NCBI RefSeq assembly: GCF_030813915.1
Contig: NZ_JAUSUJ010000028.1
Coordinates: 1 to 64,000, forward strand
Direction of reading: 5' to 3'
Length of the DNA: 64,000 nucleotides
Source of the DNA: Rhodoplanes tepidamans
GTDB taxonomy: Bacteria; Pseudomonadota; Alphaproteobacteria; Rhizobiales; Xanthobacteraceae
The notes below the pieces were generated by a model, which did no database searches, was not told the origin of the DNA, and was given only the letters and a program-made list of their open reading frames with translations. Shown here piece after piece: positions 8,741-58,400 of this stretch. Within the stretch, counting starts at the first letter, position 1; every line of letters begins with the position of its first letter. The translations under genes were made by a program, and so were the position numbers.

Positions 8741-9727
8741 ATGGTCCGCTCGCTTCGCTTGGCCGCGCATGCTGCCGGCTTCGCCGCCGTCGCCCTCGTC
8801 GTCCTCCTCGCCGCACCGGCCCGGGCCGAGTACCCGACCAAGCCGATCCGGGTGATCGTGCCGTTCTCGGCCGGCGGCGCCGTCGACATCGTCACCCGGC
8901 TGGTCACGCAGCGCATCACGGCGGAGCGCGGCTGGTCCTTCGTGATCGAGAACAAGGCGGCGGCCGGCGGCATCCTGGCGACCGACGCGGTGGCGAAGTC
9001 GGCCCCGGACGGCCACACGCTGCTGATCGCGACGCCGAACCACACCATCAATGCCGCGCTGAAGGCCGGGCAGCTTCCCTACGACTGGGAGCGCGACGTC
9101 GTCCCCGTGTCGGTGGTCGCCGAGGTGCCGGAGCTCCTGGTCGCCCATCCGGCGGCACCGTTCACGGACTTCGCCGGCTTCGTCGCCTATGCGGCGAAGA
9201 ATCCCGGCAGGCTGAGCTACTCGTCGGCCGGCAACGGCACGCTGCCGCATCTGACCATGGAGCTGCTGCTGCGCCGGGCCGGCGCCCAGGTGCTGCACGT
9301 GCCGTATCGCGGCGCCGCGCCGGCGCTCACCGACCTGCTCGCCGGCGTCGTCCAGCTCAAGCTCGACACCTATGCGACCAGCAACGCCCATGTGGCCGCC
9401 GGCCGGCTGAAGGCGCTCGCCTTCGCCAGCGCCCGCCGCTCGCCGCTGATGCCCGATCTGCCGACCGTCGCCGAGCTCGGCTTCCCGGGTTACGAGGGCG
9501 TCCTGTGGATCGGCCTGATGGCGCCGGCCGGGACGCCGGCCGCGATCGTCGAGGCGGTGGCGACCGCCAGCGTCGCGGCGGTGCGCTCGGAGGCGCTCGC
9601 CGAGCGGCTCGTCCGCGACGGCATCGAGCCGGTCGGCAGCACGCCGCAGGACTTCGCCGCCCGCATCGCCCGAGACGTCGTGCAATGGCGCGAGCTCGCC
9701 GGGGCCGGCAACATCACCATCGATTGA
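8741..9727 (+). CDS. Tripartite tricarboxylate transporter substrate-binding protein (Bug/TctC family)
   Basis: A 328-aa periplasmic binding protein. A clear signal peptide (about residues 1-29, ending ARAEYP) is followed by the family hallmark YPTKPIRVIVPFSAGGAVDI. The usual SAPDGHTLLIATPNHTIN, the GRLSYSSAGNGTLPHLTMELL pocket region, HVPYRGAAPALTDLLAG and LMAPAGTPAAIVEAV are also present. Bug proteins bind small carboxylates or amides. No TctA/TctB membrane partner is encoded nearby, so this may be an orphan receptor. The next gene, an amidohydrolase 26 bases downstream, is probably in the same operon and hints at an aromatic-derived carboxylate ligand; that is inference. Confidence 0.9.
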   Translation: MVRSLRLAAHAAGFAAVALVVLLAAPARAEYPTKPIRVIVPFSAGGAVDIVTRLVTQRITAERGWSFVIENKAAAGGILATDAVAKSAPDGHTLLIATPNHTINAALKAGQLPYDWERDVVPVSVVAEVPELLVAHPAAPFTDFAGFVAYAAKNPGRLSYSSAGNGTLPHLTMELLLRRAGAQVLHVPYRGAAPALTDLLAGVVQLKLDTYATSNAHVAAGRLKALAFASARRSPLMPDLPTVAELGFPGYEGVLWIGLMAPAGTPAAIVEAVATASVAAVRSEALAERLVRDGIEPVGSTPQDFAARIARDVVQWRELAGAGNITID

Positions 9728-9753
9728 GACGAGGGAGCCGTCACGGCCGCGCC

Positions 9754-10629
9754 ATGCCCATCCTCACCCAGCCGCCCGATCCGAACCCGAAGACGCCGCG
9801 CTTCGTCTGCCCGCCCGGCAGCGTCGACACCCACATCCACCTCATCGGGCCGTCGGACCGCTACGCGTTCGACCCGACGAGCTACTACGTCTCGGCCGAC
9901 GCCCTGCCGGAGACCCACATCGCGCTGATGGCGACGCTGGGCCTGTCGGCTGCCGTGCTGGTCAGCCCCGGCGGCTACGGCCGCGACACGCGCCTGCTCG
10001 CCGACGTGCTGGCCCGGCATCCCGACCGGTATCGCGGCATCGCCCTGGTTCCCGAGGACATCACGGATGCCGAGATCGACCGGCTGAACACGCTCGGCGT
10101 CCGCGGGGTGCGCTTCATGAGCGGCTCGCGCGGCGGCGTGCTGCCGACCATCTCGGAGGCGGTCGCCGCCCGCGTCGCCGCGCATGGCTGGCACGTCCAG
10201 TTCTATCCGCACGGCGCCGACATCGACGACTTCGCGGACCGCCTGCTGGCGCTGCCCAACACGATCGTGCTCGACCATTTCGCCAGCGTGAAGGCCGAGC
10301 GCGGCGTCGACCAGCCGGCGATGCGGACGCTCAAGCGGATGCTCGACACCGGGCGGGTGTGGATCAAGCTGTCGGGCCCGATGCGCTGCGTGCCGGGAGA
10401 CTTCCCCTATGCGGCGGTCACGCCGATCGCCCGCGCCCTGGTAGCGCATGCGCCGGAGCGGCTGGTGTGGGGCAGCGACTGGCCCCACCTCAACATGGAC
10501 GGCCGCGGCATGCCGAACGACGGCGATCTCGTCGACCTGATCCCGGAGTGGATCGAGGACGCGGCGGACCGCCGGGCGATCCTGGTCGACAATCCGGCCC
10601 GGCTGTACGGCTTTCCCACGCGCGGGTGA
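9754..10629 (+). CDS. Amidohydrolase (2-pyrone-4,6-dicarboxylate lactonase-like)
   Basis: A 291-aa TIM-barrel hydrolase beginning MPILTQPPDPNPK at ATG 9754. The metal-site motif DTHIHLIGP follows a short N-terminal loop (CPPGSVDTHIH), as in the amidohydrolase_2 / PDC lactonase group. Later conserved parts are GVRGVRFMSGSRGG, VLDHFASVKAERG, WIKLSGPMR and the C-terminal catalytic Asp motif WGSDWPHLNM, ending ILVDNPARLYGF. Relatives open lactones or hydrolyse aromatic breakdown intermediates. Pairing with the upstream carboxylate binding protein supports uptake and processing of such a compound. The exact substrate is not known. Confidence 0.87.
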   Translation: MPILTQPPDPNPKTPRFVCPPGSVDTHIHLIGPSDRYAFDPTSYYVSADALPETHIALMATLGLSAAVLVSPGGYGRDTRLLADVLARHPDRYRGIALVPEDITDAEIDRLNTLGVRGVRFMSGSRGGVLPTISEAVAARVAAHGWHVQFYPHGADIDDFADRLLALPNTIVLDHFASVKAERGVDQPAMRTLKRMLDTGRVWIKLSGPMRCVPGDFPYAAVTPIARALVAHAPERLVWGSDWPHLNMDGRGMPNDGDLVDLIPEWIEDAADRRAILVDNPARLYGFPTRG

Positions 10630-10781
10630 GCCTGCGGCGGTCGTGCAGGGCTGTCCGGGCATTGCCCGGAATGTGGTTTGAAGGACCGGGGCGAGCGCTC
10701 TATCCTGCCGGCGGGCGCTGCAGCGCGGCGCACGGGGCCGATGGCCGCCGCGGCCGGCCCGCTTTCCGGATGGATTGGGCG

Positions 10782-13172
10782 ATGACCGATAAATTGCCGG
10801 ACGTGCTCTCCGAGCTGGAGCGCAAGGTGCTGTGGTTGGCCGCGTGGATGATCCACGAGGCCAACCACCTGCGCGACAATGTCGACGGGCTCAAGGTCGG
10901 CGGCCATCAGGCCTCCTCGGCGTCGCTGTCGACCATCATGACGGCGCTGTACTTCCACGTCCTGCGGCCGCAGGACCGGGTCGCCGTCAAGCCGCATGCG
11001 AGCCCGATCTTCCACGCCATCCAGTACCTGCTCGGACGCCAGACGCGGGAGAAGCTGGCGGCGTTCCGCGGCTACAAGGGGGCGCAGAGCTACCCGTCGC
11101 GCACCAAGGACACCGACGACGTCGACTTCTCCACCGGCTCGGTCGGGCTCGGCGTCGCCCAGACGCTGTTCGCCTCGCTGGTGCAGGACTACGTCCACGG
11201 CCACGGCTTCGCCGCGGACCGGCCGGCGGGCCGGATGATCGCGCTCGTCGGCGACGCCGAGATGGACGAGGGCAACATCTTCGAGGCGCTGCTGGAGGGC
11301 TGGAAGCAGGGCCTGCGGAACTGCTGGTGGATCATCGACTACAACCGCCAGAGCCTCGACGCGGTGGTGCGCGAGGGGCTGTGGGAGCGCTACGAGAAGC
11401 TTTTTCGCGCGTTCGGGTGGGACGTGGTCATCCTCAAATACGGCGTGCTGCTCGAGGAGGCCTTCAAGAAGCCCGGGGGCGACCGGCTGCGCACCTGGAT
11501 CGACACCTGCCCGAACCAGCTCTATTCGGCCCTGACGTTCCAGGGAGGCGCCGCCTGGCGGCGGCGCCTCCCTGACGATCTCGGCGACCAGGGCCCGCTG
11601 AGCGCCATGCTGGACGAGCTGTCGGACGACGATCTCGGCCGGCTGATGACCAATCTGGCCGGACACGATCTTCCGACTCTCCTCGACGCGTTCGCAAAGA
11701 TCGACCACGACCGGCCGACCTGCATCATCGCCTACACGGTGAAGGGCCACGGCCTGCCGCTCGCCGGCCACAAGGACAACCACGCCGGCCTGATGACCAC
11801 GGCCCAGATGGAGACGTTCCGTCAGGCGATGCGGATCCGGCCCGGGCACGAATGGGATCCGTTCGAGGGCCTGTCGCGGCCGGAGGAGGAGCTTCGGGCC
11901 TTCCTGCGGAACGTGCCGTTCGCGCAGGGCGGGCCGCGCCGCTTCCGCGCGCCGCATGTCGAGGTTCCCTCGGCCCTGAAGGTCGAGGTCGCGCCGACCA
12001 TGTCGACCCAGCAGGGGTTCGGGGCGCTGTTGAACGAGGTCGGCCGGCTGAAGTCCGATTTCGCCGACCGCGTCGTCACCACGTCGCCGGACGTGACCAT
12101 GTCGACCAATCTCGGCGCCTTCGTGAACCGTCGCGGCCTGTTCGCCCGCGAACCGATGGTCGACACCTTCAAGAGCGAGCGCATTCCCTCGACCCTCACC
12201 TGGGAGTTCTCGCCGAAAGGCCAGCACGTCGAGCTCGGCATCGCCGAGATGAACCTGTTCATCCTCCTGTCGGCGCTGGGCCTGTCGCATTCGCTGTTCG
12301 GCGAGCGGCTGTTCCCGATCGGCACGCTCTACGACCCGTTCGTCTGCCGCGGCCTCGATGCCCTCAACTACGCCTGCTACCAGGACGCCCGCTTCATCCT
12401 GGCCGGCACGCCGTCCGGCATCACGCTGGCGCCGGAGGGCGGGGCGCACCAGTCGATCGGCACGCCGCTGATCGGCATGGCGCAGGACGGGCTCGCCGCC
12501 TTCGAGCCGAGCTTCGTCGACGAGCTCGCCGTCATCCTCGCCTTCGCGTTCGACTACGTGCAGCGGGACGGGGAGGGCGAGCCCTGCGAGCGCACCTGGC
12601 TGCGCGACGAGACCGGCGGCTCGGTCTATCTGCGTCTCTCCACCCGGCCGATGGAGCAGCCGCAGCGCGCCATGACCGACGCGCTCCGGCAGGGCATCAT
12701 CGACGGCGCCTACTGGATGCGGAAGCCCGGGCCGAACTGCCAGGTGGTGGTCGCCTACACGGGGGCGATCGCGCCGGAGGCGATCCAGGCGGTCGGCCTG
12801 ATGGCCGAGGACCGCCGCGACATCGGCCTCCTCGCCGTCACCTCGGCCGACCGGCTCAACGCCGGCTGGACCGCGGCGAGCCGCGCCCGCGAGCGCGGGC
12901 TGCCGCACGCCCGCTCGCACATCGAGCGGCTGATGGCCGAGCTGCCGCCCCATTGCGGGCTGGTCACGGTGCTGGACGGCCATCCCGCGACCCTCGCCTG
13001 GCTCGGCGCCGTCGCCGGCCACCGCACCCGGCCGCTCGGGGTCGAGCATTTCGGCCAGACCGGCGCGCTGCCCGATCTCCACCGCCACTACGGCATCGAC
13101 GCCAACGCCATCGTGGCCGCCGCCCAGGCGATCGCCCCGGGCCGGCCGATCCGGTACCTCAAGGCGCTGTGA
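10782..13172 (+). CDS. ThDP-dependent transketolase / pyruvate dehydrogenase E1-like protein
   Basis: A 796-aa thiamine-diphosphate enzyme. The N-terminal PP domain shows ANHLRDNVDGLKVGGHQASSAS and the ThDP/Mg motif VGDAEMDEGNIFEALLEG..DYNRQSLD; the Pyr domain carries the glutamate in HVELGIAEMNLFILLSALG. A C-terminal transketolase domain follows (about 640-796). Overall it is closer to the homodimeric AceE / long transketolase architecture than to classical Tkt (about 660 aa) or DXS, and many Hyphomicrobiales genomes carry such a protein annotated only as transketolase. The acceptor and donor are unknown. ATG 10770 four codons upstream is an equally possible start, since neither has a strong ribosome site. 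It could be co-transcribed with the amidohydrolase, 152 bases upstream. Confidence 0.82.
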   Translation: MTDKLPDVLSELERKVLWLAAWMIHEANHLRDNVDGLKVGGHQASSASLSTIMTALYFHVLRPQDRVAVKPHASPIFHAIQYLLGRQTREKLAAFRGYKGAQSYPSRTKDTDDVDFSTGSVGLGVAQTLFASLVQDYVHGHGFAADRPAGRMIALVGDAEMDEGNIFEALLEGWKQGLRNCWWIIDYNRQSLDAVVREGLWERYEKLFRAFGWDVVILKYGVLLEEAFKKPGGDRLRTWIDTCPNQLYSALTFQGGAAWRRRLPDDLGDQGPLSAMLDELSDDDLGRLMTNLAGHDLPTLLDAFAKIDHDRPTCIIAYTVKGHGLPLAGHKDNHAGLMTTAQMETFRQAMRIRPGHEWDPFEGLSRPEEELRAFLRNVPFAQGGPRRFRAPHVEVPSALKVEVAPTMSTQQGFGALLNEVGRLKSDFADRVVTTSPDVTMSTNLGAFVNRRGLFAREPMVDTFKSERIPSTLTWEFSPKGQHVELGIAEMNLFILLSALGLSHSLFGERLFPIGTLYDPFVCRGLDALNYACYQDARFILAGTPSGITLAPEGGAHQSIGTPLIGMAQDGLAAFEPSFVDELAVILAFAFDYVQRDGEGEPCERTWLRDETGGSVYLRLSTRPMEQPQRAMTDALRQGIIDGAYWMRKPGPNCQVVVAYTGAIAPEAIQAVGLMAEDRRDIGLLAVTSADRLNAGWTAASRARERGLPHARSHIERLMAELPPHCGLVTVLDGHPATLAWLGAVAGHRTRPLGVEHFGQTGALPDLHRHYGIDANAIVAAAQAIAPGRPIRYLKAL

Positions 13173-43164: not shown

Positions 43165-43475
43165 GCCGCCTGGTGATGCCGTCCGCCTCCTTCGCCACGC
43201 TCGCCTTCGAGCTGCGGGTCTACGCGAACCGCGAGGTGCTGGCGAACCACGGCGTCGAGGAGTTTTTGGCCCGCTACCCGAACGACCGCCTCGGCGTGAC
43301 GCTGGCGGAGCTGCGCGCGAGCGCCGAGTTGGTCGGCCAGGCCTCCATGCTCCTGTCGCTGCTCGCCCCTCACGAGGCGGCCGTGCGGGAGCTAGTGAAC
43401 GCCGCCGGCGCTCCGGCCGCGGCAGCCGTCCCGGTCCTCGCGCTCCCTCCGGCGAGGGAGGCCGCGGTGCCATGA
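43161..43475 (+). CDS. Early hypothetical protein
   Basis: A 104-aa helical protein starting at GTG 43161 (MSRLVMPSASFATLAFELRVYANREVL..). It ends in an Ala/Pro-rich tail that overlaps the Mor-like gene. No recognised domain. The position immediately before a Mor-type activator suggests the end of the early operon. Confidence 0.55.
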   Translation: MSRLVMPSASFATLAFELRVYANREVLANHGVEEFLARYPNDRLGVTLAELRASAELVGQASMLLSLLAPHEAAVRELVNAAGAPAAAAVPVLALPPAREAAVP

Positions 43476-43867
43476 GCTACTCCTGGCTGCCCGGGCTGCT
43501 CGCCGAGATCGCCGAGGTTGCCGGCCTCGACGCGGCGCTGGCGCTCGCGGCCGCCCGCGGCGGCACCCGCGTCCGCATCCCGGCCCAGGCCGACGACGAC
43601 CACTGGCTCACCCGCTGCGTCGGCCGCAAGGCCGCCGACGCGATCTGCATCCATTTCCGCCAGGGCACCAACCGCCCCCGCGGCGTCTATGTCGAGGTCC
43701 CGCTCGGCCGCGCCGCCAACGCCCGCCGCGTCATGGCGCAGGCGCTCGCCCGCGGCGCCTCGGCCGCCGAGGCGGCCAGAGCGGCCGGGATGACGGAGCG
43801 GAGTGCGTATCGAATGCGACGACGTTCCAGGCGCGGCTGCGATGACAGGCAGGGGCGGCTGTTCTGA
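43472..43867 (+). CDS. Mor/C-family middle-late transcription activator
   Basis: A 131-aa protein with the Mor domain: LLAEIAEVAGLDAALALAAARGGTRVRIP at the N-terminus, a strand pair around GVYVEVPLGR, and a C-terminal HTH ALARGASAAEAARAAGMTERSAYRMRRRSRR. Mor and C bind dyad sites and recruit RNA polymerase to middle and late promoters. It is the last early gene; the lysis and head genes it would control begin after the cargo gene. A decayed paralogue of its 3' half lies outside the prophage at 29405-29600. Confidence 0.82.
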   Translation: MSYSWLPGLLAEIAEVAGLDAALALAAARGGTRVRIPAQADDDHWLTRCVGRKAADAICIHFRQGTNRPRGVYVEVPLGRAANARRVMAQALARGASAAEAARAAGMTERSAYRMRRRSRRGCDDRQGRLF

Positions 43868-44002
43868 CACGGAATAATTCTAGGCGCCATAGCCGGATCG
43901 ACATTAATCTTCTGCCTGGCGATCGTGTTGCTCGCCCGCTTCCAAGACTTCTTGCTTTTCGGGCATTTGATCGCTTTCCTCGCAACAACCGAGGGAAGAG
44001 CA

Positions 44003-46423
44003 ATGGCCGCAAAAATCTTTCCACACAGTCCATCTCACTCGCGTCCAACTCGCGGGCCAAAATTCGCATTGAAATGCTCCAAATGGCTCCGGAATTCGGT
44101 GGTCGGAAGAGTTAGCACTCGTATGCGGGAGGCGCTTCGGCGCTTGAAGCAAAGAAGGATAGAAGTGGCTGAGAAATTGCGCCGCCTCAGAGCAATTCTT
44201 TGGAGGCGAATGGGAGTGGCGCGCTATCGATATTTCATCTGGAAGAAGCGATACGGCTCTACCGCTGCGGTCGGCACCCTCCTTTTGCTAATCGCGTTTA
44301 GTTTCCTTTTGATATCCCCCCTCCAGGAAGCGCTGACCCCTTACTTCCGGGCAGAAACGCAAATCGCAGCGCTTCGAGCGTTTTTTGTGCAGCTTGGTGG
44401 CTCACTCATCGGAGCGGCCGCCATCGTCTCATCGCTTGTTCTATTTGCAATGCAGGTGAATATCGAGAGAATGCCTCATGGATTATTTCGGATGCTCAGC
44501 TCGGACCGAAAGCTTTTAAGCGCATTTTCCTTCACATTTCTCTTGGCAGTGACTGTCACCAGTCTTTGCTTGATACCCGATCACCAGTGGATTGGGGTTG
44601 CGCTCGTCGCCGGATTTTGGGGGACTATATTGATTCTCGTTCTTTTTCTTTATAGTTATCGGCGCGCATTATATCTAATTAATCCTATCCAGCAGCTCAA
44701 TTCGGTGCTTCGCCGCACTCAGCGCGAACTGCGCTCGTGGGTTCGCCGCGCCAAACGAGCTGAACCGTTACTTCGTCTTCAAGACACATCCGATCGGACG
44801 GAGATGAGTTCCGAGCAACCGCAACGCGACGTTGCCCGCCTCACCTACTTTCAAGTCAATCCCGGCTGGGCGGAAAGCGCCTTACAAGGTGTCAAATATG
44901 CAACATCGTTCGCTCGACGCTATTCCGAACAAGGCGATCAGGAGGTCAGTGCCGCCGCTCTGAACATAATCGTTGCGATTAATGCAGTTTACATCGAGGC
45001 GAAGGGAAAAACGTTTTTTGCTCATCAGCTGCTTTTTGACAATCCATATACTTCCGATGAGTTTATAAACGAGACGCTAGAGCAATTTCGGCAGACAATT
45101 CGGGCCGGAATTTCGCGCGGAGACGAACAGCAGATTGAGCAGGCGTTTCGTTGCTTAACAGCACTAGTCGGCGTCTACCTGAAGATAGATTATGCGAGCG
45201 CCGATGCATCGAAAACTCACGCGCATTTAGCGACGACGTATTTAGCAGCCGAAGTTGAGCGTATTGTTCCGCACGGCATGCCAGACGTTTTGATGGAGGG
45301 CGTGCGGCTTATGGGGAAGTGCGCTGATATGCTGCTAGTCAGCGAGGGGCCTATCGGAATAGTAGCTCTGACGCAAAAGATTGGCGCAATTTCAAGTGCC
45401 GGCGCAGTACGTGAGGAGTATCGAGCTGTCTCTCTCACGGGAGTTGAGCAATTAGCTCGCCTCAGTTCTGATCTTCTACGCACACGCTCCTGCGAGGTTG
45501 GATATGCAGAGCGGCAGATTCGATCGACTATGGCATCGCTCGCGAAATATTTCCTCACGATACCGGACACGCCACTATTCAACGTCGCGAGCACATATTT
45601 GGCGCCATACTACTCCGCAGCCAGCGCACAAGGCCTAGTCGAGCGCCTGTCTCACTTCGTTAACACTGTCATGGAAGCGCCACCCAACGATGCCGATGCG
45701 CGCAAGGCAATTGCCAATCTAAGGGAATGGGCGGATGACATAAGCGAAACTGAGCGAGAAGTTCTTCTCCGAGCCATCGAGAAGCGATCTCATTTTGCAT
45801 TTGATATAATTCACCGGATTACGGCTATCACCAAGATTCTCATCACAGCATCGAACGCGGCCGCCTGCAATAATTATTACAAAAGCGAACTGCAATGTTC
45901 CGCTGTTCGACTTGTTTCAGTTTTGTCGTGGATTCCGACAGAAAAAGAAACTGTAAGCTTTGTCGAAACGTTCAGAATGACCGAGATTTTTTTCGAAGCG
46001 GCGGCTGACGCGCATCGACTTGGGTGTACAGAGGTCTTCGCCTGCAGCCAGAGAATGCTGCTTTCATGGATGTTTAAAGCGGGTCAGCACCAAACTCCAT
46101 GGTCCATTTTGCAGCGTTCATTATGCGGGCTCGCTGTGCTTGCCTTGCTAGCTGATGATCCTGGCGCGGTGGATAAGCTGAAGGCCGAGATTTCTTCGCA
46201 ACTGATGGCGGGAGGACTGCCAGACAAGGAAGCGCGCGACCGCGCTGCAAAAGACGTTCGCAATCGTGCTGCGAATCTGGATCGCCCCGGTCACTGGTCG
46301 TCCAATATCGCCTTTGCGATGTCTCAAGTTGACTCCAAGACTCTGCGACCACTTCTTAATGAAATCGCCAGCCTGATCTCCCCCGATACCGAGGGACAGT
46401 GGTCGTCCGATCCGCCAGACTGA
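44003..46423 (+). CDS. Cargo gene: 806-aa four-TM protein with large helical C-terminal domain
   Basis: I start at ATG 44003 because of its GAGGGAAGAG ribosome site; the frame is open back to 43868. A basic, coiled N-terminus (about 30-80, many Arg/Lys) precedes four TM segments at about 87-107, 129-151, 171-190 and 196-217. About 580 residues that should be cytoplasmic follow, almost entirely alpha-helical, without nucleotide-binding or catalytic motifs that I recognise. Base composition is clearly lower in GC than the phage genes on both sides, and codon choice differs (many TTT, ATA, AAT). It separates the Mor-like gene from the lysis module and is on the sense strand. It is a moron or defence candidate; the function is unknown. 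Confidence 0.7.
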   Translation: MAAKIFPHSPSHSRPTRGPKFALKCSKWLRNSVVGRVSTRMREALRRLKQRRIEVAEKLRRLRAILWRRMGVARYRYFIWKKRYGSTAAVGTLLLLIAFSFLLISPLQEALTPYFRAETQIAALRAFFVQLGGSLIGAAAIVSSLVLFAMQVNIERMPHGLFRMLSSDRKLLSAFSFTFLLAVTVTSLCLIPDHQWIGVALVAGFWGTILILVLFLYSYRRALYLINPIQQLNSVLRRTQRELRSWVRRAKRAEPLLRLQDTSDRTEMSSEQPQRDVARLTYFQVNPGWAESALQGVKYATSFARRYSEQGDQEVSAAALNIIVAINAVYIEAKGKTFFAHQLLFDNPYTSDEFINETLEQFRQTIRAGISRGDEQQIEQAFRCLTALVGVYLKIDYASADASKTHAHLATTYLAAEVERIVPHGMPDVLMEGVRLMGKCADMLLVSEGPIGIVALTQKIGAISSAGAVREEYRAVSLTGVEQLARLSSDLLRTRSCEVGYAERQIRSTMASLAKYFLTIPDTPLFNVASTYLAPYYSAASAQGLVERLSHFVNTVMEAPPNDADARKAIANLREWADDISETEREVLLRAIEKRSHFAFDIIHRITAITKILITASNAAACNNYYKSELQCSAVRLVSVLSWIPTEKETVSFVETFRMTEIFFEAAADAHRLGCTEVFACSQRMLLSWMFKAGQHQTPWSILQRSLCGLAVLALLADDPGAVDKLKAEISSQLMAGGLPDKEARDRAAKDVRNRAANLDRPGHWSSNIAFAMSQVDSKTLRPLLNEIASLISPDTEGQWSSDPPD

Positions 46424-46545: not shown

Positions 46546-46633
46546 TAGCCATAGCGGCCGGCGCACGTCCTGACCCTGTCAGGGGCTCGCGTGTCGCCTA
46601 ATCACCGCACTGTCCGGTCCTCGGGGGCCGGAC

Positions 46634-49393: not shown

Positions 49394-50041
49394 CTACAGC
49401 CTATCTTCGAAGTACCTGCTGAGCTGCCTCTCGACCGAACTGCGACGAGCACTGAGCTTGTGGACCTTGCGATTCAGATACCTCGCTGCCTCTCCGATAT
49501 TTCTGACCAAATACTGCATCTTCATCGTGAAAATAGCTGCTCCAATCGGCGCGTGGTGTGGCAGCCACTTCACCGCGATCTGCGCCGGTTCTTTCAGAAG
49601 ACGCCGGAGGAGGTCAGCGGTCTCAATGTCGGCAGTCGGAAACTTCGACAGGACCTGTTCGTCGATTTTCACGGGCAGTCCCGCAGTGAGATCAAAAGTG
49701 TCACGAAAGATTGCGCACATCCCTTGAAGAGAATTTATCTGTTCTTTGAGCTTCAGATGCAGCGCCCCAAGATCATGCGCGACCGGCGCAACGACCGGGA
49801 GGATTTTGTCAATTCTCTCCTGCTCCTTGATCAGCACGGTTATTCGGTGCGTCTGACGGGTCATGAAGAATGCCGTCGTCGCCGCACCGAGCGCCACAAT
49901 TGCGCTGATCAATGTTTGCCATCTCTGGAGCCAGTCCAGGTCGACTCGGCGAAATTCGATTCCATAGGCAAAGCCGCCGACGAAACCGATGATCCCGACG
50001 GCAGCGCACAGGACACTCGCGTTCCAGCGTTCGATACTCAT
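49394..50041 (-). CDS. Cargo gene: 215-aa two-TM protein on the opposite strand
   Basis: Starts at ATG 50041 behind a strong GGAGGGGGC site. TM segments lie at about 9-28 (SVLCAAVGIIGFVGGFAYGI) and 42-60 (QTLISAIVALGAATTAFFM), followed by about 155 residues that should be cytoplasmic and helical (ITVLIKEQERIDKILPVVAPVAHDL..). Its GC is lower than its neighbours, and it runs against every other late gene. Insertion between gp27 and gp28 genes breaks a normally contiguous terminase unit. Similar small two-TM prophage proteins are common, but I know no function. A moron, possibly expressed in the lysogen from its own promoter. Confidence 0.72.
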   Translation of the reverse strand: MSIERWNASVLCAAVGIIGFVGGFAYGIEFRRVDLDWLQRWQTLISAIVALGAATTAFFMTRQTHRITVLIKEQERIDKILPVVAPVAHDLGALHLKLKEQINSLQGMCAIFRDTFDLTAGLPVKIDEQVLSKFPTADIETADLLRRLLKEPAQIAVKWLPHHAPIGAAIFTMKMQYLVRNIGEAARYLNRKVHKLSARRSSVERQLSRYFEDRL

Positions 50042-50112
50042 TGCCCCCTCCAGCATCTCGGCGGAACCGAGATAGAAGCGCGCAAACAATCGCCTGTGAA
50101 GGGGTGCGCCCT

Positions 50113-53370: not shown

Positions 53371-54705
53371 ATGATGCGGCCGACGCGCCGCCAGGTCCTC
53401 GGCCTGATCGCGGCGCTGGCCGGCACCATCGAGCGCGGCATGGCGGCGCCGCCCGAGGTGCTGTCGTTCTTCCGCGACAAGAGCCTCACGCCGAAATTCT
53501 CCTGGCTCGACGTGTGGGGCGAGGAGCACGCCCACGCCTTCACGGTCGCCGGCGTCACCGAGGCGAAGGTCTTGGCGCAATTCCAGGCTTCGATCGACAA
53601 GGCGATCGTCGAGGGCTGGGGCTTCGAGCATTTCCGCGAAGAGATGCAGAAGCGCCTCTCGCCGCGCGGGTGGTGGGGGCCGCGCCAGGTCGAGGACCCG
53701 GAGGGCCGCTGGCGGACCAAGCCGGTCGACTTCTCGGCGCCACGCCGCCTGCAGACGACGTTCTGGGCGAACATGCGGGCGGCGCGTGCCGCAGGCCAAT
53801 GGGACCGCATCCAGCGGACCAAGCGGGCGCTGCCCTATCTGCTCTACGTGCGCTCGGTGTCCGAACGGAAGCGGCCCGATCACCTGCGCTGGGTCGGCAC
53901 CATCCTGCCGGTCGACCATCCGTTCTGGTCGAGCCACTTCCCGCCGAACGGTTGGGGCTGCAAATGCTCCGTGCGGTCGATCACGGCCGAGGAGCGCGAC
54001 GACTATCTGTCCCGGCCGGCGAGCGATGCGCCGGGCGCGATCAGCTACACGGACGAGCCGCCACCGACCGTCACGCGCACCTTCGTCAACCGGCGCACCG
54101 GCGAGCGCGCCGAGGTGCCGGTCGGCATCGACCCCGGCTGGCAGACCAATCCCGGCATCGGCCGCGGCCGCACGCTCGGGCGCATCCTCGCCGACCAGGT
54201 GGACGCGACGCCGCTCGACCTCGCCCGCGGCCGTATCGAGAGGCTGACCGACAGCGAGGGGTTTCGCTCGTTCCTATGGCGGGCGCAGGAGCAAGGCGCG
54301 CGGCGCGCGGCGCTGCAGCAGGCTGGAGCGAGCCGCACGGCGATCGAGGCTGCCGCTCCGTGGTCGCACAGTCCGGTGCCAGTCGCGCGGCTGTCCGACG
54401 ACGTTGCGGCGAAGCTCGGAGTGACGAACCCGGCGGTCACGATCACGGACGCGGCGGTCGGGCACTCTCCCGCCCACCATTACCCGGACTGGGTGTGGTC
54501 ACGCTTGCAGGAGATGGTCGAAAGCGGAGCGATCTACCGACGGCGGCACGACGGACGCTATCTCGTCGTCGGCGAGGTCGCAGGCCGGACGATGATGCTC
54601 GTCCTGGCGGAAGTCCCCGGCGATCGCTGCGGGGTCGTCACGCTGTTCCAGGTGCCACAGCGCTATCTGGCCAAGGCGCTCGCCGATGCCGATCGCGTGG
54701 GATGA
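53371..54705 (+). CDS. Phage head morphogenesis protein (Mu gpF-like) with C-terminal nuclease-like domain
   Basis: A 444-aa minor head protein. The N-terminal about 270 residues are the Mu F / SPP1 gp7 type: FRDKSLTPKFSWLDVWGEEHAHAFTV and RPDHLRWVGTILPVDHPFW..FPPNGWGCKCSVR, where Cys-x-Cys is diagnostic. After a linker rich in Ala/Arg, residues about 345-440 (VTITDAAVGHSPAHHYPDWVW.., GRYLVVGEVAGRTMMLVLAEV) look like the barnase/EndoU/colicin-E5/D/RelE-type (BECR) nuclease domains known as fusions to phage head proteins. That second part is inference from pattern. The gene begins 10 bases after the portal. Confidence 0.82.
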   Translation: MMRPTRRQVLGLIAALAGTIERGMAAPPEVLSFFRDKSLTPKFSWLDVWGEEHAHAFTVAGVTEAKVLAQFQASIDKAIVEGWGFEHFREEMQKRLSPRGWWGPRQVEDPEGRWRTKPVDFSAPRRLQTTFWANMRAARAAGQWDRIQRTKRALPYLLYVRSVSERKRPDHLRWVGTILPVDHPFWSSHFPPNGWGCKCSVRSITAEERDDYLSRPASDAPGAISYTDEPPPTVTRTFVNRRTGERAEVPVGIDPGWQTNPGIGRGRTLGRILADQVDATPLDLARGRIERLTDSEGFRSFLWRAQEQGARRAALQQAGASRTAIEAAAPWSHSPVPVARLSDDVAAKLGVTNPAVTITDAAVGHSPAHHYPDWVWSRLQEMVESGAIYRRRHDGRYLVVGEVAGRTMMLVLAEVPGDRCGVVTLFQVPQRYLAKALADADRVG

Positions 54706-54987
54706 GAATGCGGGGGAGGGCCGTAACCCCCTCTGGTCGAGACGCATCAGGACCGGGACGGCGGCGCCGGAGCGCCAATTTCCCCGCACCTCCAAACATA
54801 TTCCTCGCGGCTCGGATCCGCAACGGGCGCTCGATCCTGATGGCGAGCCCGTGGGAAGCCCGCTGATGCGCCGCCGCCCTCCGGGGCATCTCGGCCCGCC
54901 CGACCTCGAAACGGCTTCTACGCCCCCTTCTACGGGGCGGGACGGGGCATCGATCATGTTCGGGATGGCCGGAATAGAACGCGACGG

Positions 54988-57153
54988 CTAGTGATCGTTA
55001 TCTGCGTCTTTCTTCTTCCAAGCCGTCAGGAAGTCCATCACCGCTATCGCGGCATCGTCTGTAGCGCCTTCCGCCGCTATTTCTTCGACGCGCCTGCGGA
55101 GTTGATCGCGGTCAAGTACCTTGTCCAGTGAGCCCACGCTCGCGACTGTATGCCGCCTGGCCACCGCATCGCCGGCGCCTTGGGTCCACGAATGAGAAGT
55201 AAACGCCTTGGCAAAGATTGCGACCATTGCATCGTCTTTGAGCTGCTTTTTCGCCCACCTCTTGACTTGCTGCCCCTCATCAGCGGCAAGCTCGCGCCAG
55301 CGGAACATGAGATACGCTAGGCGCTTGGACGATGCCAGCTCGCTTGACCTGCTTGCTGCGCGGATTCGCTTCAATGCGAGAGCATGTAAAGCCTCGGCAT
55401 CTGGCTCCGTTGTCAGGCAGTCGGCTTCGGCCGACGGTGCCTTGCCCTCTCGTGGATGGTAATCTGTATAAGCAGACTGAGCAAAATCGACTAGCCAACT
55501 CAGGCTTGCCGTCCTGCACGCGGCTGCAAACAACTTCGAGCGCGTCGCAAGATCGAATCGGCCTCGTGTGAGGCTCCTCAGAAGCCAATGGATGCGCAAT
55601 TCGTTGTCGCCGATCGAGAAGCCTCGCTCTCTATCGGCTTCAACGTCCAGCTCGTCGGCAATTTCAAAGAGAGCCTTCAACAAAGGGCCGACATCCTTCT
55701 TCTCAACTCTCGCAGCATGCAGGTTCAGCTCATCCAAGATCAACTTAGCTTTAGTACTGCCATCGCGCCGTTTCACGCCGAGCGCGGCCCGCATTGATGA
55801 CTTCACGAATATCTCATCTGATGCCTTGGAAATGAGTTCGTCTAGTTCCGTTCGCGAAAGGACATCATCGCCAATTGAAAAGCGGAAATAGGAGTCGAAA
55901 TGGTCCTCAGAGCAGACCAATCGGTCACGACTCCAGGTGGCGGCAGCGCCATCTCCATAGCTCAGGTTACCCCAGACGGATTCGAGCCCCGGGAACAGCC
56001 GCATCAACGACCGCTTCACGTGTTCTCTGTCCTTTTCTGGTACGATATCGAGAAACAGCGCGTTCATCTCGCCCGCGCGGTCGCGACCAGAACGGCCAGT
56101 CCTGTCGCCGGTCCCGCATAATTTTTCCTTGCTTGAGCGCAGGTTCCGATAAACCGACGGCTGGAACAGACGCATTACTTCCAGGCCGACGAAATCGGCG
56201 CAATCAACCTCGCTGCCGACAGCAGGCCATGTAACGGAAAGAACGTTGGCAATTCGGATGAGATCGCGGGGTGTCGTGATTTCAGGCGCAATCACGTCGT
56301 AAAAGACGTTCATAAACCGCACTATCGCATCTTCACGAGGCGAACCGCAGATAAGTTCGATCTGTCGCAGTAACTCGTTGGTGAGGTCGACGTGACGCGG
56401 CCGAGGAACGTCGAATCCAGCCTGAATGATTTTTTCGAGATAATGCGGTCCTTCGGACGGATAGCGCTCAGAAACGATCGCCTCTGCAAGCTCACGGTCA
56501 AAGACAAGCAGATACACAACGTTCGGGAGCCGCCCAACTGACTTGACGAGACGAAAAACAAGCAGTGCCTCGTCAGGTGCGAGTCGGTCGATGTCGTCGA
56601 TCACGATCAGAAATCGCTTATTCTGCTCGGCGAGCGCCTTAGTGAGTTCTCCTTGTAGCTTTTCGACTGTATCATCCGCCTTGATGAAGTCTGATACCCA
56701 TGACATTGCGCTCGACGCAAGGGTGCCAACACCGGCCTTTGCTCCAACGAGGTCAGCTCCAGCGCTGACGATCGACCCAGCCTTCAAGAGGCGCACGCCC
56801 ATATTGTGAAGCGCCTTCTTGAACTTGTCTCCAAGAGTCTGGCCTATCCCGGCGTAGAGTTCGCGAAAGAATGCGAGAGCGAGGGCATCTTCGCCTCTGA
56901 ACCACCAGCAAGCAAAATTGACAACCGCCAGATCACCCTTTTCGGTGACGTCTTTAAGATGATGGAGCACGAGATTTACCGCGCTGCTCTTGCCGGAACC
57001 CCACGGGCCATTGAGCGCGATCACAGTCCCGTCGGGTGACTTGATATTTCTGATACTGCTAGCCAACGCCTGCGCGAACGGATCAATACCAAACCTATCC
57101 TCCGCCGGCTCGGCTATTGGCCTGTCATTATGGGGACGACTCGATTCCGTCAT
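54988..57153 (-). CDS. Cargo gene: KAP-family P-loop NTPase
   Basis: A 721-aa protein on the strand opposite to the late operon, ATG 57153 behind GAGGTG. Walker A is at 49-56 (GPWGSGKS), the KAP W-motif at about 79-85 (NFACWWF) and Walker B at 180-190 (RFLIVIDDIDR), then RLVKSVGRLPNVVYLLVFD. A weakly hydrophobic insert (about 125-150) lies between them, where other KAP proteins have TM segments. Residues about 300-721 are helical and unassigned. KAP NTPases include PifA, which excludes phage T7, so an exclusion function is plausible. GC is lower than in the flanking head genes. The 282 bases before it (54706-54987) hold no convincing gene. Confidence 0.85.
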   Translation of the reverse strand: MTESSRPHNDRPIAEPAEDRFGIDPFAQALASSIRNIKSPDGTVIALNGPWGSGKSSAVNLVLHHLKDVTEKGDLAVVNFACWWFRGEDALALAFFRELYAGIGQTLGDKFKKALHNMGVRLLKAGSIVSAGADLVGAKAGVGTLASSAMSWVSDFIKADDTVEKLQGELTKALAEQNKRFLIVIDDIDRLAPDEALLVFRLVKSVGRLPNVVYLLVFDRELAEAIVSERYPSEGPHYLEKIIQAGFDVPRPRHVDLTNELLRQIELICGSPREDAIVRFMNVFYDVIAPEITTPRDLIRIANVLSVTWPAVGSEVDCADFVGLEVMRLFQPSVYRNLRSSKEKLCGTGDRTGRSGRDRAGEMNALFLDIVPEKDREHVKRSLMRLFPGLESVWGNLSYGDGAAATWSRDRLVCSEDHFDSYFRFSIGDDVLSRTELDELISKASDEIFVKSSMRAALGVKRRDGSTKAKLILDELNLHAARVEKKDVGPLLKALFEIADELDVEADRERGFSIGDNELRIHWLLRSLTRGRFDLATRSKLFAAACRTASLSWLVDFAQSAYTDYHPREGKAPSAEADCLTTEPDAEALHALALKRIRAASRSSELASSKRLAYLMFRWRELAADEGQQVKRWAKKQLKDDAMVAIFAKAFTSHSWTQGAGDAVARRHTVASVGSLDKVLDRDQLRRRVEEIAAEGATDDAAIAVMDFLTAWKKKDADNDH

Positions 57154-57305
57154 GCTTCGGACACCTCAGCGTTTCGAGGCGCAGCATTCCCCCTGCCTAT
57201 CCTCGCCATTCGAGACGAAGTCAGGGTGTCGGCCGCCGCCGATTAAATAGGCTGCTGACACCTGTCAGCGGCCCGGGATTTGGGGTGCGCCGGTAGCGTG
57301 CACCC

Positions 57306-58400
57306 ATGGCACCCCGGCACGCAACCCCCTCTGTTCCGCCCGACGTCGCCCTCGGCGTCGTCACGCTCGACGGCGCCGCGTTGGCGGCCGGCGCGGTCGA
57401 CGACGCCGGTTGGGTCCGGGTCGCGCCGCGCGGCGAGATCACCACGCGGGACGGGCGGCGGTACGTGTTCGAGCCCGAGCGGCTGGTGGCGCGGTTCGCG
57501 GCCGACGGCATCGACGTGCCGGTCGATGTCGACCACGCGATCTCCCGGAAGCCGCTGTTCGGCGAGCGGGCCGACGCGGTCGGCTGGATCAAGGCCCTGG
57601 AGGCGCGGCCGGACGGGCTGTGGGCGCGCGTCGAGCTGCTCGACGCCGGCAAAGCCGTCCTGGCGGCGCGCACGCACCGCTTCGTCTCCCCGACCTTCCA
57701 TCACACCGACGCCGGCCTCGCGACCTGGCTGCATTCGGTCGCGCTCGTCGCCGCACCCGCGCTCGCCATGGCGGCGATCGCGGCAGCCGTGCCGGCCGCG
57801 GGAGCTGTGCCGGCCCGGAGCCCCGATCCTTCTCACCACACGGAGAGACGCATGATCAAAGCCATCGCCCAGGCCCTCGGCCTGGCGGACGGTGCCGAGG
57901 AGGCCGCGTGCCTCGCGGCGATCGGAACCCTGCAGGCGGAGCGGACGGCGGCCGCCGGCAAGGTCGACAAGGCCGTGCATGACCAGGCGCTGGCGACACT
58001 CTCGGCCGCGCAGGCGCAGCTCGCCGCCCTGCAGGCGGCGGACCGCAAGACGCGCGTCGACGCCGTGATCGAAGGCGCCCTGAAGGCGAAGAAGATCGTC
58101 CCGGCGCAGCGCGACCACTACGTCGCCCTGTGCGCCACCGACGACGGCCTCGCCGCCGTCGAGAAGCTCATCGCCGCCACGCCGGCCGGCCTGCAGGCGT
58201 CGGGGCTCGACGCGCAAGGAGCGCCCGACGCGGACGCCGCGCCGGACCCGGCCGCGCTCGCCGCGCAGGCGACCGCCTACCAGAAGAAGCTCGCCGAGGG
58301 CGGGCAGACCATCTCGATCGCGGAGGCGGTCGTTTCCGTCGCCGCGAATGCCGGCGCCCGTGGCGTCGGCGCAGCCGACCAGAAGGAGGCCCGGGCGTGA
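57306..58400 (+). CDS. Prohead protease with C-terminal scaffold (Mu gpI-like)
   Basis: A 364-aa protein. The N-terminal half (about 1-160) is the Mu I protease: WVRVAPRGEITTRDGRRYVFEPERLVARF, VPVDVDHAISRKPLFGERADAVGWIKAL and the serine region RTHRFVSPTFHH. The second half is helical and Ala/Gln-rich (AALQAERTAAAGKVDKAVHDQALATLSAAQAQL), as in scaffolds. An internal ribosome site and ATG at 57852 would make the scaffold separately. It assembles and matures the prohead. Confidence 0.88.
   Translation: MAPRHATPSVPPDVALGVVTLDGAALAAGAVDDAGWVRVAPRGEITTRDGRRYVFEPERLVARFAADGIDVPVDVDHAISRKPLFGERADAVGWIKALEARPDGLWARVELLDAGKAVLAARTHRFVSPTFHHTDAGLATWLHSVALVAAPALAMAAIAAAVPAAGAVPARSPDPSHHTERRMIKAIAQALGLADGAEEAACLAAIGTLQAERTAAAGKVDKAVHDQALATLSAAQAQLAALQAADRKTRVDAVIEGALKAKKIVPAQRDHYVALCATDDGLAAVEKLIAATPAGLQASGLDAQGAPDADAAPDPAALAAQATAYQKKLAEGGQTISIAEAVVSVAANAGARGVGAADQKEARA
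57852..58400 (+). CDS. Nested in-frame scaffold protein (Mu gpZ-like)
   Basis: ATG 57852 within the protease gene has GGAGAGACGC immediately upstream, a much better ribosome site than that of the full-length gene. The product would be 182 aa (MIKAIAQALGLADGAEEAA..), the helical scaffold part alone. Mu encodes its scaffold gpZ as exactly such an in-frame internal gene of I. Not proven from sequence, but site, position and family agree. Confidence 0.7.
   Translation: MIKAIAQALGLADGAEEAACLAAIGTLQAERTAAAGKVDKAVHDQALATLSAAQAQLAALQAADRKTRVDAVIEGALKAKKIVPAQRDHYVALCATDDGLAAVEKLIAATPAGLQASGLDAQGAPDADAAPDPAALAAQATAYQKKLAEGGQTISIAEAVVSVAANAGARGVGAADQKEARA

Follow-up and report, generated by a model that had tools for sequence, protein, structure and literature searches.

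A PifA-family KAP NTPase gene at the variable gpF-protease junction of a Mu-like prophage from Rhodoplanes tepidamans

The DNA considered here, called the window below, is a stretch of 64,000 nucleotides from a contig of Rhodoplanes tepidamans. It contains a Mu-like prophage, identified as such by portal, gpF and protease (Pfam) and by terminase (PHROGs); frames located upstream in it are presumably transposase-like and GemA-like. A long reading frame lies between the gpF and protease genes, on the strand opposite to both. The features of this region and of the late genes around it are as follows.

53371..54705, plus strand: left neighbour, minor head protein gpF (Phage_Mu_F 1.3e-14; phrog_220 1e-72)
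54921..54938: hairpin CGCCCC-TTCTAC-GGGGCG, left border of the cargo, read from the sequence; the terminator scan made no call here
54988..57153, minus strand: PifA-family KAP P-loop NTPase, 721 aa, ATG start, frame open
57254..57269: 16-bp dyad GCTGACACCTGTCAGC, candidate site of a Mor/C-type late activator, where the right-hand homology resumes
57294..57299, plus strand: -10-like TAGCGT, 24 nt past the dyad (protease ATG at 57306)
57306..58400, plus strand: right neighbour, protease/scaffold protein, homologue of Mu gene I (Mu-like_Pro 7.7e-42)
46569..46583: second dyad CCTGACCCTGTCAGG, likely P_lys, 50 bp 5' of the ATG of a frame called lysozyme
43472..43867, plus strand: 131-aa HTH-like protein, candidate activator (Pfam Mor 0.0097, HTH_23 0.00043, both below the cut-off)

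The initial annotation, made from the sequence alone, had described a 721-aa minus-strand frame between gpF and the protease, a KAP-family protein with Walker A, W-motif and Walker B, low in GC and having its own ribosome site, and all of these points agree with the present results. The KAP_NTPase domain of Pfam covers residues 24-308 (5.5e-44). The PifA model of PADLOC (PDLC02361) gives E=2.2e-129 and 431 bits, with residues 5-705 aligned to positions 3-711 of 720, which far exceeds any chance match. QatA, PDC-S20 and other KAP-type defence NTPases also match the protein, overlapping its NTPase domain, at no more than 63 bits (62.7 for PDC-S20, 41.9 for QatA) versus 431 for PifA. The stretches GPWGSGKSS (approximately residues 49-57), CWWFRGE and LIVIDDIDRL are taken by us to be the Walker A, tryptophan and Walker B regions. 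In an alignment of 10 sequences, the Walker A and B residues including D186 and D187 are invariant, as are W83 and the scattered C-terminal W619, W633 and D681. The product of 54988-57153 is a real, full-length PifA-family protein, i.e., a known kind of protein. Its C-terminal region, earlier regarded as having no family, belongs to PifA too, because the model match extends to residue 705, the alignment with PifA of plasmid F extends to residue 666 and C-terminal residues are invariant. With the model and this alignment covering the region, a subgroup defined by a C-terminus outside the family was dropped.

The GC content of the frame is 0.56, against 0.73 for gpF and protease; the bins between 55 and 57 kb have 0.567 and 0.547, and the adjoining ones 0.704 and 0.705. 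The sequence GAGG stands 10 bases 5' of the ATG. A membrane segment inserted in the NTPase domain is a trait of the KAP class. The 19-residue hydropathy maximum of the protein is 1.22, at residue 128 within the NTPase domain, less than the value of about 1.6 commonly required for a membrane segment; hydropathy thus reveals no clear membrane helix. A PDB sequence search returned no match at E<=10, and an AlphaFold model built from two sequences was too poor for use (mean pLDDT 57, pTM 0.34). Consensus scanning of 54500-57450 found neither sigma-70-like promoters nor terminator-like sites, although host promoters may differ. The missing promoter call would suit an insert that is passive freight at a tolerant spot, silent or non-functional in this host. 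We consider this unlikely; the 721-codon frame is intact and the NTPase motifs are kept.

The PifA protein of plasmid F (NC_002483, 741 aa) resembles the window protein in length, in its KAP NTPase domain and in its C-terminal region, and both match the same PADLOC model over near their whole length, F PifA itself with 963 bits. BLASTP aligns the two over 712 positions (window residues 10-666) with 23% identity and E=1e-38. In a tree of 19 rows, the window protein falls into an alphaproteobacterial clade of nine rows (support 100/99), apart from F PifA and its Klebsiella relative, and the branch to F PifA is long. The deeper order of this tree is unsure because of long branches, that of locus L162 above all. 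The window gene thus differs from F pifA in identity, in clade and in its Mu-like prophage setting, and also in having no adjacent pifC: the ORFs listed from gpF to protease include no such gene. In F, pifC adjoins pifA, and a regulator gene stands beside the PifA relative in a Klebsiella plasmid. The adjacency of pifC is a trait of the F operon, and the PifA profile does not require it.

F PifA is described as active against T7 and a small number of its relatives. The sensitivity of T7 depends on gp1.2 and to some degree on gp10, and cell killing via membrane depolarisation has been suggested (PMC8594841, PMC11990801). The range of F PifA is thus narrow, and the authors of PMC8594841 suggest that immunity may not be what the gene evolved for.

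The host genome has a single copy of the PifA-type gene. In the family of the host, 13 of 296 genomes match the protein at E<=1e-30, that of the host included. Matches occur in 1093 plasmid records, 12 of which cover at least 80% of the query, and in four records of the phage collection, each over 44% of the query at most. Among viral contigs, two loci were found, namely the window's own prophage and L226. The latter, apparently the same gene as L039, has its PifA homologue behind an integrase-like ORF, with a 322-aa ORF of no assigned role next (L226:1-4848) and, by eye, lysis-, gpD- and tape-measure-like ORFs further on. In seven homologue neighbourhoods inspected by eye, gene GC was below locus GC in every case, the neighbours varied and no constant partner gene was seen; at L037, two low-GC ORFs adjoin the homologue. 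The phage genes of the window were absent from ten homologue loci (tblastn, E<=1e-5).

The closest relative among the matches listed is L046 from Rhodoplanes elegans, a species of the host's genus, with 98% identity in the portal and 89% in the protease. Inspected by eye, the homology between the window, L046, L047 and L048 continues past gpF through the hairpin at 54921-54938, stops soon after and resumes at the dyad. Within these limits the L047 junction is empty, and the window, L046 and L048 each have different cargo. In the first set (window and L046-L063), 13 members have 325-732 bp between the gpF stop and the protease match with no clear cargo, and low-GC inserts are found in the window, L046, L048, L056, L057 and L058.

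The wider set comprised 180 listed loci, with L002, a viral-contig copy of the window's prophage, excluded; 162 had both genes and 142 were distinct by end sequence. The two gpF scans of the collections contributed the best 80 of 567 and the best 80 of 586 confirmed matches. Measured from the gpF stop codon, the gap has a median of 320 bp and reaches at least 900 bp in 25 of the 142 listed junctions, the cut of 900 bp for a large gap being arbitrary and the junctions sharing descent. Measured from hit ends, 27 of 142 are large, and L063 and L130 drop out on the stop-codon measure. Gaps of this size are found at two of 135 portal-gpF junctions and two of 35 protease-major head protein junctions of the listed loci. 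The large gaps do not hold a displaced Mu gene G, a candidate that was dropped after four G proteins (window, JBD30, RS1, Mu) gave no match in the 142 gaps. The variability of the gpF-protease junction across the listed Mu-like phages is shown by these counts, and the family and position of the gene are likewise established.

The PifA-type protein was found by tblastn (E<=1e-3) in the window only, among the 180 listed loci; other relatives have different genes or a short spacer at this junction. A conserved phage gene was therefore dropped as a reading. The case that the initial annotation named as its refutation, with homologues kept in position and strand throughout the related phages, does not apply, and the view of mobile cargo, supported by low GC as well, is upheld. 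The gene is missing between the same genes in relatives and deviates in GC, two marks of a moron; a moron would also have its own promoter and terminator. The gene could still serve the phage itself, as a regulator of the timing of lysis or as a factor that excludes superinfecting phages of its own kind and no others. Its place beside a likely late promoter, pointing away from it, would fit such a role, and other primary functions of PifA have been raised (PMC8594841). We regard this as very unlikely, given that one listed locus of 180 has the gene and that homologues reside on plasmids and at chromosomal places lacking the window's phage genes.

PADLOC was applied to 38 junction ORFs, drawn from 23 of the 25 large junctions and from one smaller junction (L173). 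A junction counted as scanned when at least one of its ORFs was included; L210 and L218 contributed no ORF, and the scan passed over some small ORFs of the others. At E<=0.01, 11 ORFs in 10 of the 23 scanned large junctions gave matches, a count that covers junction ORFs alone:

window, minus strand: PifA, 2.2e-129
L046: Dsr1, 8.1e-80
L208: GajA/Old, 1.1e-44
L162: PifA model at residues 13-76 only, 7.7e-13 (Pfam KAP 3.7e-18)
L090: type IIG restriction-methylation, 2.1e-33
L107: PDC-S15, FRG domain, 2.5e-37
L133: PDC-S42, 1.5e-26
L075: PDC-M19B, 1.5e-34
L167: PycTIR, 2.2e-120, and PycC, 1.5e-105
L221: AbiTii, 3.3e-30

By these profile matches, nine further defence types, named or candidate, appear to be present at the junction in the relatives scanned; candidate families account for three of the 10 matching junctions, and the match is antisense to the late genes in five. 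In L046 of Rhodoplanes elegans, the Dsr1-type SIR2 protein has 1265 aa and occupies the same junction and strand as the window gene (L046:1315-5112). The Pycsar-like pair of L167 (PycTIR, PycC; 9393-11016) belongs to a viral contig, where it sits at the gene I junction. In L107 (4521-6060), three similar ORFs stand in a row, the first matching Response_reg (1e-11).

The remaining 13 of the 23 scanned large junctions yielded no PADLOC match. They include a DUF6119 protein (L058, 3e-133) and a GGDEF protein (L056, 1.4e-38), and receiver-like and other ORFs without a family call are also among the junction cargo. These 13 junctions are what the passive-freight explanation would lead one to expect, whereas the presence of several known defence families at one junction suggests selection. 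A different question concerns the locus. The junction might be a tolerant gap, its defence content mirroring how common such genes are in mobile DNA generally and not marking a special arms locus. The other cargo (GGDEF, DUF6119, receiver-like and unassigned ORFs) speaks for this, as does the fact that the PADLOC counts cover junction ORFs alone. The matches in 10 of 23 scanned large junctions and the anti-CRISPR genes located on the same protease side in two Pseudomonas phages speak against it. We regard the tolerant gap as a real possibility, if not the one we would choose; it is compatible with defence by the PifA-type gene.

The gene had been placed inside the head operon. Its position between gpF and protease stands, but the dyad and -10-like box ahead of the protease point to a boundary of late units there. 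The dyad at 57254 together with TAGCGT is likely the late promoter of the protease gene, as judged from the sequence. A third dyad was found at contig position 70451, ahead of a sheath-like gene, with TAGCCT at the same 24-nt spacing; this spacing to a TAGCNT box holds for two of the three dyads and was not seen at 46569. The pattern NNTGAC-N3/4-GTCANN has three sites, all with perfect arms, in 84 kb (the window and the next 20 kb of contig). In 200 first-order simulations, a mean of 1.5 sites of any kind and 0.1 perfect-arm sites appeared and none reached three perfect ones, a figure that flatters the pattern because its three to four spacer bases were set with the sites at 57254 and 46569 already known; the third site is the only independent find. 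The exact 16-mer of the 57254 dyad does not recur in the window even with three mismatches allowed, GACANNTGTC gave one site against 0.62 expected, and a degenerate dyad pattern gave 41 matches against 32.3 expected. The third dyad was also considered as P_P, and this was dropped: the next gene is sheath-like (PF17482, 2.8e-5, below the cut-off) and is followed by that of a tube protein (1.8e-11), so the site is called a tail-unit promoter.

Twelve relatives were chosen from 18 (L046-L063). A dyad precedes the protease in all 12, and a second, lysis-side dyad is present in eight, at a presumed position in L052 and L054, where lysis genes were not recognised. Both dyads are identical within the phage in four of the eight (L051, L054, L059, L062) and the variant differs from phage to phage, as expected for one activator. 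Eight more perfect dyads occur in the 12 relatives away from late-promoter positions. By fuzzy match, the dyad is present in 15 of 19 rows (window and L046-L063). A perfect-arm dyad within about 220 bp ahead of the protease match was found in 27 of the 142 listed junctions versus none of 142 control pieces inside gpF, and by gap size (hit ends) in seven of 27 large and 20 of 115 small junctions. With 27 of 142 junctions in the wider set, the motif is limited to a clade.

Mu expresses its late genes from the promoters lys, I, P and mom (PMC4461284). In Mu Pm, the Mor site spans 16 bp, with two 5-bp inverted repeats around a 6-nt spacer and its centre at -43.5 (PMC4390567). The window resembles Mu in having a likely promoter before gene I, and two of its three dyads share the 16-bp layout and, if TAGCGT serves as the -10 box, a similar position at about -44. 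In contrast to Mu, the dyad sequence is different, the third site precedes a sheath-like gene, not gene P, and the activator is weakly identified (Mor 0.0097); assignment of the 43472-43867 protein as a Mor-type activator is uncertain. The stretch TAG.GTGC.CCCATG (window 57294-57308) is alike in six aligned phages. The inferred late start coincides with the protease ATG or lies close to it, which may leave the protease message almost leaderless. Judging by these sites, the PifA-type gene probably stands at the boundary of two late transcription units, not inside one operon.

Two further frames of the prophage deserve mention. The first (43925-46423, plus strand, 832 aa) follows the Mor-like ORF and ends before the lysis-side dyad. 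It occupies the bins where the GC of the window is lowest (0.524, 0.502), has hydrophobic stretches by eye and showed no Pfam or PADLOC match; it is possibly a second cargo site ahead of a late promoter. The second (49394-50089, minus strand, 231 aa, GC bin 0.595) is antisense between a gp27-like gene and terminase, without a PADLOC match and with weak family matches only. An antisense ORF also stands between the terminase genes of phage RS1; kinship of the two was dropped at E=3.0.

In Mu, gene I encodes the protease, and the G-I gap is 196 bp and contains a gyrase site. In the Pseudomonas phage JBD30, the interval from the G homologue to the protease contains AcrF1 and a winged-HTH gene; in D3112 it contains AcrF2 together with two small ORFs, and in RS1 and RC1 three hypothetical ORFs, one of them antisense. 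Nine variable regions have been described for Pseudomonas Mu-like phages, with anti-CRISPR genes in region G, of low GC (PMC4378225). As in the window, the variable cargo of JBD30 and D3112 is located just 5' of the protease. The Pseudomonas locus has small genes on the late-gene strand after G, whereas cargo at the window-type junction follows gpF, is large and lies on either strand. In the window, G is further downstream than in the Mu-type order, so that cargo comes directly after gpF and the landmark shared with the Pseudomonas phages is the protease side. The P2/P4 hotspots (Rousset 2022, PMC9122126) are likewise fixed prophage or satellite sites with exchangeable antiviral systems, in another phage type and at another site; the term 'mu-like' does not occur in the main text of that paper. 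In the open-licence literature, we found no paper on defence genes at the gpF-protease junction of other Mu-like phages.

The best explanation of the PifA-type gene, one we consider probable, is that of exchangeable cargo against phages, carried where two late units of the Mu-like prophage meet. A gene of the PifA family would have been gained horizontally and set between these units, one for lysis, packaging and gpF and the other for protease and head, pointing away from the likely late promoter. Since such insertion spares both late units, the junction may act as a cargo docking site of Mu-like phages. The lysogen would make the PifA-type protein from its own promoter, and the protein would wait for a product of an invading phage, perhaps sensed via the C-terminal helical region. 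ATP hydrolysis, action on or damage to the membrane and aborted infection would then follow, as proposed for F PifA. It is by homology to the latter that we infer protection of the lysogen, expression there, sensing and membrane action.

A broader proposal, for which we see close to an even chance and which is offered tentatively, is that an old arms locus before gene I is shared from Pseudomonas to Alphaproteobacteria. It would hold either anti-CRISPRs or weapons against rival phages (PifA, Dsr1, GajA/Old-like, Pycsar, AbiTii, RM) and would be kept open by the gpF-side hairpin and the protease-side Mor-type late promoter, its conserved edges serving as homology arms for cargo swaps. If this is true, new anti-phage genes could be sought by reading a single fixed place in a widespread phage type, with the 13 scanned large junctions that gave no PADLOC match as candidates. 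The anti-CRISPR site of Pseudomonas phages would be linked with defence cargo elsewhere, and the late-promoter boundary would give a simple reason for the tolerance of cargo among essential structural genes. A prophage-borne branch is added to PifA, with which it may be tested what this family senses.
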